From Phycisphaerae bacterium (GTDB lineage Bacteria; Planctomycetota; Phycisphaerae; Tepidisphaerales; Tepidisphaeraceae), in the NCBI GenBank assembly GCA_025936175.1, contig JAICTV010000019.1, positions 1 to 41,403 of the forward strand: DNA of 41,403 nt, given 5' to 3'. Position numbers and translations under genes: made by a program. The first letter of the stretch is position 1. Every line of letters begins with the position of its first letter. Below are positions 15,401-32,567 of the stretch, one piece after another. The notes under the pieces were generated by a model. The model was not told the DNA's origin. It saw nothing but the letters and a program-made list of their open reading frames with translations, and did not search any database.

Positions 15401-15411
15401 TTTGAAACGTA

Positions 15412-15471
15412 GCATGGCCGTCTCGGCCATGCATTTCCCCGCGGGAGAGGGCATGGCCGAGACGGCCATGC
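15412..15471. repeat. Palindromic repeat element, GCATGGCCG family, copy 1
   Basis: Two 21-bp arms (15412-15432 and 15451-15471) are exact reverse complements of each other, and each arm is itself a near-palindrome (GCATGGCCG, 3-bp loop, CGGCCATGC). The loop between arms is 18 bp. It lies just behind the phosphoesterase stop and reads in frame into the SIS gene. Copy 2 of the same family is at 22756-22822. Confidence 0.9.
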
Positions 15472-15479
15472 GACGAAGG

Positions 15480-16259
15480 ATGGGCGAAGCTCACGACAAC
15501 TCCGCTGCCGGCATCGACGCCTACTTCCGCGCCCTCGCGGAGCTGAGCGCGCGCGTGCTGGAGACACAGCGCGCGATGATGGAGCAGGTCGCCGCGCGGA
15601 TGGCCGAGACGATTCTCGCCGGCGCGCGGATCTTCGTCTTCGGCACCGGGCACTCGCACATGCTCGCCGAAGAGGGCTATGCGCGGGCCGGCGGATTGAT
15701 GTCGGTCGTGCCGATCTTCTACACCGCGCTGATGCTGCACGAGAGCATCCCGCTGGAGGCGAAGATCGAGCGCGTGCCGGGACTCGCCGCCGATCTGCTC
15801 GATCGATCCGGCGTCAAGGCGGGCGAGATGCTCTTCGTCTACTCCAACAGCGGCGTGAACCACCTGCCGGTGGAGATGGCGATCGAGGCAAAAAAACGCG
15901 GCGTGATTACCGTCACCGTCGGCTCGATCGCGTTCGCCAAGGTCGCGCCGCTCTCGCGCATCGGCAAACGACTGGCCGACGTGTGCGACTTCGCGATCGA
16001 CAACGGCGGCGTGCCGGGCGACGGCGTCATTGACGTGCCGGGCAACCAGTGGAAAGTCGGCCCCACCTCCACCGTCATCGGCGCGACGATCTGGAACGCG
16101 CTGGTCGTCGAAACCACTCGCCGAATCCAGGCGGCCAGGGGCGATGCGCCGCTCGCCGTCAGCTTCAACATGCCCGGCTACCAGAAGTGGGCCGAGGCGC
16201 AGGAACAGAAAAAGGCGGCGGGGAACGAGGCCTTCAGGCTGGCGCCGAGTCACCTATGA
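15480..16259 (+). CDS. SIS-domain phosphosugar-binding protein (UPF0309-like)
   Basis: 259 residues from ATG 15480. An N-terminal helix (residues 8-40) is followed by a sugar isomerase (SIS) fold: FVFGTGHSHMLAEEGYARAGG is the phosphosugar-binding loop region and FVYSNSGVNHLPVEMA the second Ser/Gly-rich loop. The family binds phosphorylated sugars or amino sugars in the cytoplasm. The start is uncertain: the frame is open upstream through the palindromic element, and ATG 15453 inside the element has a better ribosome site (GGGAGAGG) than ATG 15480. Its ATGA stop overlaps the start of the ROK kinase, which suggests that kinase and SIS protein act on the same sugar phosphate. Confidence 0.85.
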   Translation: MGEAHDNSAAGIDAYFRALAELSARVLETQRAMMEQVAARMAETILAGARIFVFGTGHSHMLAEEGYARAGGLMSVVPIFYTALMLHESIPLEAKIERVPGLAADLLDRSGVKAGEMLFVYSNSGVNHLPVEMAIEAKKRGVITVTVGSIAFAKVAPLSRIGKRLADVCDFAIDNGGVPGDGVIDVPGNQWKVGPTSTVIGATIWNALVVETTRRIQAARGDAPLAVSFNMPGYQKWAEAQEQKKAAGNEAFRLAPSHL

Positions 16260-17443
16260 ACGACGATGGCGCGCTGGCGATCGGCGTCGATCTGGGGGCG
16301 ACGAAGATCGCGACGGCGCTGGTCGCGCGGGACGGGCGAGTCGTGGCGGCGCGGACAACGGCGACGCAGGCCGGCGACGGCGCGGCAGCCGTCTGCGATC
16401 GCATCGCGTCGGAAATCTTCGCACTGATCAAACAATCGCCGGCGAAGGTGATCGGCATCGGCGTCGGCTCGCCCGGCGCAATCGATCGGGAGCGCGGCAT
16501 CGTCCGCGGCGCGGTGAACCTGGGGTGGTATGAAGTGCCGCTCGGCGATGAGCTGCGCCGGCGCGTTGTACACCGAGCGCCCGCGAACTCCACGGCCAGC
16601 GCACGATGTCATCCCGAGGTACTCCGAGGGATCTCGCAGGCCAGTTGCGTCCGAGATCCCTCAGAGTACCTCGGGATGACAGTCGCTGCGGCTCATGTTG
16701 CAGGTGAGGATGATGGCGATCTCCCCGTCATCATCGACACCGACGCCAACGCCAACGCCGTCGGCGAAGGGATGTTCGGCTCCGCCGTCGGCTGCGACAG
16801 CTACGTGCTGTTCACGATCGGCTCCGGACTCGGCGCCGGCGTCGTCAGCGGCGGACGGCTGGTCACCGGCGGCAGCGAGGGGATCGCCGCGAACCTCGGA
16901 CATTACGCGCTCGACCCGGAACACGGCCGCGCGTGCGCGTGCGGGCATCACGGGTGCGCCGAGACGATCGTGTCCGGACCGGCGCTGGCGGCGAGCACGG
17001 GCGCGGCGTCGGCGGACTCGGTCGTCGCGGAGGCTCGGAATGGCGACACCGCAGCGCGGACCGCGATCCGAGCGATGGCGCGGGCGCTCGGGCACGTCGC
17101 CGCCGTCGCGGCGGCCGTCGTCGATCCGCAGGTCATCGTCATCGGCGGCGGGCTCGGCGCCGCCGCGTTCGATCTGCTGGTGCCACCAGCGCAAACTGAA
17201 ATGTACCGGCGGTTGCCGACGAGCTTCACCGGCCGCATCGCGTTCCGCCGCGCGGGATTGAGCAGCCCCGCGATCGGCGCGGCGAGCCTCATCTTCTCAC
17301 GCCTCGATCCGCGCCAGGCGCGCGCAGGGGCGAGACTTGTCTCGCCCTCTTCCGGCGCCGGAAACACGGGCGACACAAGTGTCGCCCCTGGCGGCGCAAC
17401 GGACTCTCTAAGCCCGAACATCTCCGCGGACGAACGACCATGA
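16256..17443 (+). CDS. ROK-family sugar kinase with two in-frame palindromic insertions
   Basis: 395 residues against 300-320 usual. The phosphate-binding motif DLGATK is at residues 12-17. The catalytic Asp is D163 in DTDANANAVGE (family form NDAN). His216 of NLGH and the Cys cluster C227, C229, C234 of CACGHHGC form the ROK zinc site. The protein should phosphorylate a hexose or amino sugar with ATP. Residues 118-142 are encoded by a 75-bp palindromic element, and the tail after about residue 350 contains another (residues 357-378). Both keep the frame. The insert at 118-142 sits in the loop between the helix after PLGDELRRR and the strand LPVIID, so activity may survive. Starts and stops overlap both neighbours by ATGA. 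Confidence 0.88.
   Translation: MNDDGALAIGVDLGATKIATALVARDGRVVAARTTATQAGDGAAAVCDRIASEIFALIKQSPAKVIGIGVGSPGAIDRERGIVRGAVNLGWYEVPLGDELRRRVVHRAPANSTASARCHPEVLRGISQASCVRDPSEYLGMTVAAAHVAGEDDGDLPVIIDTDANANAVGEGMFGSAVGCDSYVLFTIGSGLGAGVVSGGRLVTGGSEGIAANLGHYALDPEHGRACACGHHGCAETIVSGPALAASTGAASADSVVAEARNGDTAARTAIRAMARALGHVAAVAAAVVDPQVIVIGGGLGAAAFDLLVPPAQTEMYRRLPTSFTGRIAFRRAGLSSPAIGAASLIFSRLDPRQARAGARLVSPSSGAGNTGDTSVAPGGATDSLSPNISADERP
16607..16681. repeat. Palindromic repeat element, GAGGTACTC family, inside the ROK kinase gene
   Basis: Two 30-bp arms (16607-16636 and 16652-16681) are reverse complements with one mismatch, around a 15-bp loop. Total 75 bp, exactly 25 codons, with no stop in the gene's frame. 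The core GAGGTACTCCGA also occurs at 21264-21290 and, inverted, at 21126-21152. Confidence 0.92.
17325..17390. repeat. Palindromic repeat element, CAGGGGCGA family, copy 1, in the ROK kinase tail
   Basis: CAGGGGCGA at 17325 pairs with TCGCCCCTG at 17382-17390. Each half contains its own small palindrome: GGGCGAGA/TCTCGCCC on the left and GGGCGACAC/GTGTCGCCC on the right. The 66 bp equal 22 codons and stay in frame. A second copy lies at 40560-40641. Confidence 0.85.
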
Positions 17444-22701: not shown

Positions 22702-22755
22702 AGCGCGCCCGATGTGCGACGTGGAGTCAACGTGCTCGACATGCCTGCTTTCGTA

Positions 22756-22822
22756 GCATGGCCGTCTCGGCCATGCCGTTGCCTATTCGGAAATCGTGAG
22801 GGCATGGGCGAGACGCCCATGC
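22756..22822. repeat. Palindromic repeat element, GCATGGCCG family, copy 2
   Basis: Arm one (22756-22776) is identical to that of copy 1 at 15412-15432. Arm two (22802-22822) is its reverse complement with two compensatory changes (GCATGGGCG...CGCCCATGC). Flanking bases CGTA and TACG extend the pairing. The loop between arms (22777-22801) differs from copy 1. It lies between the second beta-helix gene and the MFS gene. Confidence 0.9.
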
Positions 22823-30533: not shown

Positions 30534-32567
30534 CTATTTGGTCAACTCGATTCGAACGGCGCGAGCGGCGTTGACCGAAATGTTTTGATTCGGCTTCACC
30601 AGCGCGACCGCAAGATCACCCTGCCGCACGATCCATCCGGCAGCGGATTCTTCGAGCGTCGCTCGCGGTTCGTCCGGCGATTCGAGGTCGGCGGGAACGA
30701 GAAGCGAGAGGAACCGGCGGGATTTCCCCGTCCCGCCGGACACCTCCGCGCGCCACGCCCCAGGCGTGTGCGGCCCAACCATCGTGCGGCTGAGCGGATA
30801 ATTCGTCCCGTCCACTTCGAACTCGCGGCCTTCGCCGCCGATCTTTTCGATTTGCGCATCCGCCGGCAGCAGCACCGTCGCGGACAATCTCCCGCCGGCG
30901 TGCGCCGCGATGATACGGTTCGCCTCGATGCGCGGCTCGCTCATCGTGTGCAAGAGAAAACGCGGTTCGTACGCGAGTTGGGAGGGCGAGGCTCCCGCCG
31001 AGGCGGCATTTTCTTTCGACCGTGGATTCGGCTCGGCAGGCGCCTCGCCGTCCCCGTCCGCCAGCTCGATCTCGTCCAGCACCACGAGCGACACGCACGT
31101 CTTCCGCGGCCAATCGAGCACGAACGTGACGTGTCTCAGGAAACGCGTCACCTTCTCCCTGCGATAGCAGTTCGACGCGTCGCCGCAGACGTAACTCCAG
31201 CCGTTCCCTTCGCGATAGGAGATGACTTGGCCGTCGCGGAAGACCTCCGCGCCGATTTCTTCGTACGTGCGCCCCTGAAAATGCGGCTCGTTGATGAAGC
31301 GCTGTCCGCCGTCGTTGGCATACTGCTTTCCACGGCTGACCATCTTCTCGGCCGGATCGCGCACCACGATCGTGTTGTGCGCGATCGTGCGGATGTAATA
31401 GTTGTACCAGTGCGGCGTCTCGTACGCGTCGTACGCGCCGGAGTCGATCGCGAGATCGCCTTTGTGATAAATCGTGAAACTGTTCGCGTCGCGATGCCCG
31501 TGATTGTGCAAATAGGTTGGCGTGCACTTGAACGACGCGACGGTGCCCCGATCAAAATCCCCGCGCGCCACGACGACCCCCATCGGCCCGAAGTGCTTCG
31601 TCCGCGGCAACTGATCCGGCAGCCGCCGGGCTACGCCGGGCCGGTCCTCGAACAGCAGCGTCTCGGGTTCCTGTTCCTTCAGCTTGAACCGATCGACCCA
31701 CCACTGCGCGAGCCCGTCACGATACCGATGCGCGATCGCCGCCAGCGGGCGGAAATACTGCCCGTTCTCGAACACCGGGATCGCGCAGAAGTAATCGCCG
31801 AAGCGGATGAACGTCTCGTCCTCGCGCAGCGCGTACGTCCACCACTTGACGACGTTGGCGAACCACGCGTTCGGGCGGTACATCTCGATGCCGAGCCCCG
31901 CCTCGATCGCGTTGAAGATCCACGGGAACTCGCCGACATAGGTGGACGTGTAGGAAAAACTCTGCTGGAAGCAGTCCTGCTCGAGGAAGTGCCGATAGCA
32001 CGGCATCTGCTTTTCCCAGCGGCGGAGCATGTCGGCGACGAGCGGGACTGATTTTTCCCCGCCGTCGATCTCGTCGCCGATCGCGATGCCGGCCATCAGC
32101 ACGAACGGCATCTGGTTGATCGCGTGGCCGAGGAAGTAGCAGTCGGGCTCGATCTCGCCGCTGTCGTACAGCGCCTGCGAGTACGCGAGCGCCTTGAGTC
32201 CGACCTGGCGGCGAAGCTCCGACCCGAGCGGCTCGTGAAGATAGTCGTAAGCGGCAGCCAGTGCCTTGATGCGACGCGCGGCGGTGAAGTATTCGCCGCA
32301 CACGTCGAGCTGGAGCACTCGACGCAGCGCTTCGATCGCGACCTGCGCGTGCGCCGGATCCTGCGTCAGCAGATGAAGGAAGGAAAGCCGCCAGAGCGGT
32401 TCCGAGTAGTCCCCCCCATGGCTACCCGGAACCGGTCCGGCGGCCGCGAGGTCGAGCAGCGACTGGTACTGCTCCTTGTGCGTCGAAGCGGCGCGGCGTC
32501 GCAACGCCGGCACGTCATCCGGCCGGACGAGCACGCGCGGATGGCCTTGGCGAATCTTGAAGTCCAC
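30534..32567 (-). CDS. Heparinase II/III-like polysaccharide lyase-type protein with in-frame palindromic insertion
   Basis: 677 residues. The N-terminal half is an (alpha/alpha) toroid and the C-terminal half a beta-sandwich, as in heparinase II/III and alginate lyase families. Conserved stretches include NHGHRDANSFTIYH near residue 355 and YYIRTIAHNTIVV near 390-395, the signature of the family active-site region (Tyr and His). No signal peptide is seen, so it may act in the cytoplasm on oligosaccharides. Residues about 505-529 (GEAPAEP ... SAGASPS) come from a palindromic element and look like an in-frame insertion. Start is GTG 32567, with AGGA overlapping the esterase stop region 6 bp away. 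Confidence 0.87.
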   Translation of the reverse strand: MDFKIRQGHPRVLVRPDDVPALRRRAASTHKEQYQSLLDLAAAGPVPGSHGGDYSEPLWRLSFLHLLTQDPAHAQVAIEALRRVLQLDVCGEYFTAARRIKALAAAYDYLHEPLGSELRRQVGLKALAYSQALYDSGEIEPDCYFLGHAINQMPFVLMAGIAIGDEIDGGEKSVPLVADMLRRWEKQMPCYRHFLEQDCFQQSFSYTSTYVGEFPWIFNAIEAGLGIEMYRPNAWFANVVKWWTYALREDETFIRFGDYFCAIPVFENGQYFRPLAAIAHRYRDGLAQWWVDRFKLKEQEPETLLFEDRPGVARRLPDQLPRTKHFGPMGVVVARGDFDRGTVASFKCTPTYLHNHGHRDANSFTIYHKGDLAIDSGAYDAYETPHWYNYYIRTIAHNTIVVRDPAEKMVSRGKQYANDGGQRFINEPHFQGRTYEEIGAEVFRDGQVISYREGNGWSYVCGDASNCYRREKVTRFLRHVTFVLDWPRKTCVSLVVLDEIELADGDGEAPAEPNPRSKENAASAGASPSQLAYEPRFLLHTMSEPRIEANRIIAAHAGGRLSATVLLPADAQIEKIGGEGREFEVDGTNYPLSRTMVGPHTPGAWRAEVSGGTGKSRRFLSLLVPADLESPDEPRATLEESAAGWIVRQGDLAVALVKPNQNISVNAARAVRIELTK
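30981..31053. repeat. Palindromic repeat element, GGCGAGGC family, inside the heparinase-like gene
   Basis: The arms GGCGAGGCTCCCGCCGAGGC (30985-31004) and GGCTCGGCAGGCGCCTCGCC (31030-31049) are near reverse complements, about 25 bp apart. The reading frame of the lyase gene is kept through the element and encodes the Ala/Pro/Ser-rich peptide GEAPAEP ... SAGASPS. Confidence 0.8.

Follow-up and report, generated by a model that had tools for sequence, protein, structure and literature searches.

The repeat inside the heparinase-like gene of the window (by which we mean the whole stretch analysed, 41,403 nucleotides of a Phycisphaerae contig) is very probably a copy of a REPIN moved by a RAYT transposase, whose copies surviving inside genes keep the reading frame and are nearly always entered through the peptide EGEAPAEP, and whose copy in the lyase gives rise to a disordered loop. 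The host gene (30534–32567, minus strand) encodes a protein of 677 residues that matches PF07940 (Hepar_II_III_C, E = 3.3e-16), and the best fold match of its model is heparinase II (2fut, E = 6.4e-28); as domain and fold are both present, we classify it as a heparinase II/III-type polysaccharide lyase. The element occupies positions 30980–31054, which is 75 nt or 25 codons, has GGGAG...CTCCC-type ends, and consists of a variable spacer enclosed by a pair of inverted REPs of 25 nt, GGGAGGGCGAGGCTCCYGCCGAGCC. The left arm, GGGAGGGCGAGGCTCCCGCCGAGGC (30980–31004, plus strand), differs from the genome consensus by one mismatch in its 20-nt core, and it is followed by a 25-nt spacer (31005–31029) and by the inverted right arm (31030–31054, minus strand), the reverse complement of GGGACGGCGAGGCGCCTGCCGAGCC, which is likewise 25 nt long and is the first arm to be read in the lyase gene, as DGEAPAEP. 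The copy is translated in frame as DGEAPAEPNPRSKENAASAGASPS, residues 505–530 of the protein (GEAPAEP...SAGASPS). The original prediction had placed a palindromic repeat in frame in this gene, which was confirmed, with its borders corrected from 30981–31053. As single-stranded DNA, the 75 nt folded with −25.5 kcal/mol (z = −3.8).

We searched the host genome assembly (5.53 Mb, 384 contigs, 86% complete) for further copies. With up to two mismatches over 25 nt there were 134 REP arms, compared to none for the reversed control, while exact half-elements numbered 90 (reversed pattern, 0) and half-elements with up to three mismatches 194 (reversed pattern, 10); 62 inverted doublets were present. 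The window alone showed no excess, with four arm matches against 2.46 expected from shuffles. Many copies stood at contig ends (e.g., C5, C45, C55, C168, C289, and C331), and the repeat has therefore probably broken the assembly, so that these copy numbers are lower bounds. From 77 retrieved regions, three of them around transposase genes, 80 copies were aligned, giving an element of 69–80 nt with the consensus GGGAGGGCGAGGCTCCYGCCGAGCCG, a spacer that differs from copy to copy, and the mirror image of the first part. Each REP consists of a GGGAG foot and an imperfect palindrome, GGCGAGGC-TCCY-GCCGAGCC, with the pattern GGC-GA-GGC-TCCY-GCC-GA-GCC. The copies had sharp borders at GGGAG, preceded by a slight preference for Y, and the foot was conserved at 88–95% per position, indicating that it is neither a GTAG nor a CGTC foot. 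No target-site duplication was found at the aligned copies, as expected for HUH/Y1 transposases. The doublet folded as one hairpin (z about −4), and a single arm folded no better than shuffled sequence. An Rfam search with the element returned a chance match only.

A candidate for the mobilising enzyme was found by tblastn with a transposase embedded in an isoleucyl-tRNA synthetase (IleRS) gene as the query. On contig C255 of the same genome (locus L113), the ORF 499–921 scores 83.3 bits (cut-off 80) with the NCBIfam model of the REP-associated tyrosine transposase (NF047646); PF01797 scored 14.5 bits on it, below the cut-off. This ORF is flanked by two copies of the element, 373–448 and 926–996, the first ending 50 nt before the ORF and the second beginning 5 nt past its stop codon. 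We infer that this RAYT most probably mobilises the element, and the REPIN, a small mobile element that is not autonomous and consists of a pair of inverted REP hairpins, would be moved as single-stranded DNA by a RAYT of the same genome. Y1 transposase genes on contigs C160, C378, and C261 were rejected as partners, as no intact element adjoins them. Y1_Tnp was present in 96 of 120 genomes of the class, and its correlation with the element is therefore uninformative. A RAYT of the L113 type was not found in another genome, G011, though the copy number there equals that of this genome.

To determine where the copies lie, gene context was called from 210 nt on each side with the element itself excluded, using codon models per genome or GC class whose frame accuracy was 0.9–1.0 (0.71 in the genome G126). 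In this genome 9 of 72 copies (about one in eight) lay in genes, compared to 56% of random placements (p = 3e-14), which is a depletion of about fourfold. The depletion was significant in five of six sets; in G126, with 12 of 36 copies in genes against 50% expected (p = 0.06), it was not. The element thus shows the features of a REPIN, being a dispersed, high-copy imperfect palindrome that forms an inverted doublet hairpin, lies mostly outside genes, and flanks a RAYT gene with the same REP.

The copies that do lie in genes were strongly biased in the frame in which they are entered. Both flanks shared one frame in all 17 in-gene doublets, 15 of which are entered in phase 2 (EGEAPAEP) and two as GRAR.PSR, so that the frame bias expected by the original prediction was borne out. 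One of the two, L096, was called in-gene by its flanks and was rejected as a true exception because it probably precedes the start of its gene; with it dropped, 15 of 16 gives p = 8e-7 against one third. The one clear exception is a copy in an RsmB-like gene (L381), entered in phase 0. Among in-gene single arms in the EGEAPAEP orientation, about 11 credible ones were in phase 2 and one (L424) in phase 0; four further loci (L106, L414, L159, and L216) were judged chance matches. In-gene copies of 70, 71, and 74 nt need one or two extra or missing bases to keep the frame, and those bases were not located. The exit frame was unbiased, at about 4:7:4 (SAGASPS 4, ARREPRPP 7, and L-RSLALP 4).

In the lyase, the segment of residues 505–530 was absent at the protein level from all 10 aligned homologs, the closest of which (L142) is 52–54% identical and the other nine more distant, so that the observation named beforehand as refuting, a peptide conserved in distant homologs, was not made. 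The insert stands between 'LDEIELA' and 'EPRFLLHT', where the homologs have a short turn. In an AlphaFold model built on a 10-sequence alignment, residues 507–529 had a pLDDT below 50 and lay between confident β-strands (492–502 and 534–541). The natural homolog L142 served as the insert-free comparison for folding, and in its model the strands 601–613 and 619–626 are joined by a turn of five residues; the structure prediction proposed as a check thus supports a loop. In the models, then, the lyase copy is a disordered loop of about 26 residues replacing a tight β-hairpin turn. The added floppy loop is probably harmless to the host protein, and the lyase with its insert is presumably still functional.

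The other hosts are unrelated to the lyase. A copy in MnmE lies within the G domain, in the loop that follows DVAG, and is absent from 24 MnmE orthologs, again an empty site at the protein level; no pair of one species yielded such a site in the DNA, and no copy was seen to move. Further copies were found in an AddB-like PD-(D/E)XK protein, a DUF4132 protein, a ThuA/HEAT protein, a second MnmE (L420), and GlnE (L222), and half-elements lie within IleRS, GlnRS/GluRS-type, and ProRS-type synthetases.

Several explanations of these inserts were compared. We infer that the entry-frame bias reflects selection on the peptide and not the choice of target. The copies would land in many places and most of those hitting genes would be lost, the survivors being those that keep the reading frame, nearly always with the 5ʹ arm read in the one frame that gives EGEAPAEP, an acidic peptide of Pro and Ala. 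Stop codons were rejected as the cause of the bias, since among copies in other genomes phase 0 was open in 114 of 130 and phase 2 in 112 of 130. The evenness of the exit peptides counts against selection on the peptide, as a general peptide filter might have biased the exit as well. That evenness also tells against the idea that GGGAG, or part of it, already stood in the gene and that its usual codon phase dictated the frame: because the element is symmetric, antisense targets should bias the exit frame, yet the exit is free. RAYT relatives do pick their cleavage sites through short foot sequences (PMC8266576), and 52% of GGGAG occurrences in coding DNA are in phase 2, above one third. The observed 15 of 16 exceeds even this preference (p = 5e-4 against 0.52), and with the preferred preceding Y the phase-2 expectation drops to 0.30, so we consider such target choice unlikely.

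That the inserts are adaptive, with REPINs supplying new loops by which host proteins are improved or regulated, appears less likely still. Essential translation genes are among the hosts, and the AddB-like nucleases of two species (L161 and L220), 66% identical as proteins, carry an insertion at the corresponding place. The identical arm of these two says nothing about constraint, being an ascertainment effect: it was an exact 26-mer that singled out both loci. The in-gene depletion, the unrelated hosts, and the loop that is disordered in the model all speak against a benefit. For the same reasons the function originally proposed, a source of protein loops, was too strong: a loop does appear in the model, but no benefit was seen. 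It is hardly conceivable that the segment belongs to the lyase family as an ordinary linker, rich in GC, whose likeness to the repeat is accidental; the arm on its own is unremarkable against window shuffles and folds no better than shuffled sequence, but at up to two mismatches the arms recur throughout the genome and never in the reversed control, both arms are present in the lyase copy, and the homologs lack the segment. The whole pattern fits a selfish element filtered by selection, whose insertions persist where the peptide is tolerated.

Other repeats were present in the window. A different palindromic repeat (16601–16681) lies in frame in a ROK-kinase ORF (16034–17440) as CHPEVLRGISQ...PSEYLGMT, and the ROK domain of this ORF was matched in two stretches split by the repeat. 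GTAG-type GCATGGCCG repeats at 15408–15475 and 22750–22794 reach into two ORFs at the N-terminus only, one with a SIS domain and one of the MFS type, and they may lie upstream of the true starts of both. Of the three repeat families said to alter proteins here, two are thus internal to their proteins (lyase and ROK kinase) and the third touches N-terminal ends at most. The 8-mer TCAATGGC forms a tandem array at 739–802.

REPs are often species- or strain-specific. Among 120 genomes sampled from the class, the arm occurred in seven, with at least 25 arms in four: this genome and G011 (134 each), G126 (77), and G077 (25). The exact 26-nt arm was also found in metagenome-assembled genomes (MAGs) of several Planctomycetota lineages, with classes taken from their labels. 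By MAG label alone, it further occurs in Hydrogenedentota, Armatimonadetes, Acidobacteria, and a deltaproteobacterium (L183, L198, L203, L217, and L224), which may reflect horizontal spread or mis-binning.

In several genomes of the class, RAYT-like transposases were themselves found in frame inside long ORFs. In this genome, a DinG-like helicase (L063, contig C191, 1–2634, plus strand) encloses a complete RAYT with GTAG-type REPs at both ends (insert about 1141–1851). RAYT cassettes lie in frame in IleRS (L303, genome G126), RarA (L435, G102), PurH (L442), and GcvPB (L456), and at one common site in two valyl-tRNA synthetases (ValRS; L440 and L445, G122 and G117); in ThiE (L446 and L451) the RAYT is at the C-terminus, and in DNA methylase-like proteins (L436 and L454) the cassette is inside or fused. 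By comparison with solved structures, the ValRS insert comprises about 255 residues and falls between 363 and 377 in 1gax; the RarA insert, of about 215 residues, falls between 220 and 239 in 3pvs. G117, G122, and G126 yielded no further gene for ValRS or IleRS. The RarA of this genome (L082, contig C74) carries a GTAG-tagged REPIN (GVSPMP...HGRDAHAT) in frame at the place corresponding to the L435 cassette. We tentatively suggest, at somewhat below even odds, that in this class of planctomycetes housekeeping genes receive in-frame insertions of REPs and of whole REPtrons (REP, transposase, and REP), which persist as unspliced, translated inserts. The cassettes are comparable to inteins in niche, with so far no sign of splicing.

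These results extend what has been described for related repeats. REPINs are inverted REP doublets that form hairpins at high copy number, mostly outside genes, together with a REP-flanked transposase gene (Bertels and Rainey 2011, PMC3116915). The present element has in common with them the inverted doublet hairpin, the high copy number, the extragenic leaning, and the flanked RAYT, but differs in its GGGAG foot, in an arm found, by MAG label, in several Planctomycetota classes and some other phyla, and in copies translated in a preferred frame. Intragenic REPs tagged with GTAG or CGTC have been described that code for 20–30 residues and are frequent in genes for DNA repair and tRNA-related functions (Di Nocera et al. 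2013, PMC3733652). Insertion in ORFs and the leaning to DNA-repair and tRNA genes are common to both, whereas the GGGAG tag and the entry-frame bias distinguish our element, the bias not being known from that study (PMC3733652). The RPEs are palindromic units of about 150 bp in frame in unrelated genes, encoding a recurrent peptide, with nearly half of them in ORFs (Ogata et al. 2000, 2002, reviewed in PMC10969869). Our element likewise is palindromic and inserts in frame in unrelated ORFs with a recurrent peptide, but its unit is about 70–80 nt, only about one in eight copies lies in genes, well below half, and a RAYT is associated. In the HuH superfamily, a survey of TnpA-REP subclasses set aside proteins longer than expected, taking them for gene fusions or faulty annotations (PMC6006769); the RAYT here matches the NCBIfam model of REP-associated tyrosine transposases, and the long ORFs seen here are housekeeping genes that a transposase cassette interrupts.

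In-frame REP insertion is thus already known from the Rickettsia RPEs and from Di Nocera et al. (2013). A full-text search of open-licence papers for GEAPAEP returned no paper. The element is a REP family new in itself but of a known type (REPIN and RAYT), partly RPE-like in behaviour; new besides the family are the entry-frame bias and the transposase cassettes in housekeeping genes, neither of which we found described in the open-licence literature. If the suggestion about the cassettes is true, the sole ValRS and IleRS of some genomes would be composites enclosing a transposase domain, the REP sequence would be constrained to keep one frame giving a harmless peptide, and mobile elements would have a new way of life as in-frame cassettes within tRNA synthetase genes present in one copy only. 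As for the REPIN, the in-gene copies show that a selfish repeat of bacteria can become part of the translated product of ordinary genes, with its frame strongly ruled, so that one codon phase allows one to predict what a REP does to a protein. These copies also amount to many insertion experiments made by nature, which point out the loops that tolerate extra residues in conserved enzymes, MnmE and GlnE among them.
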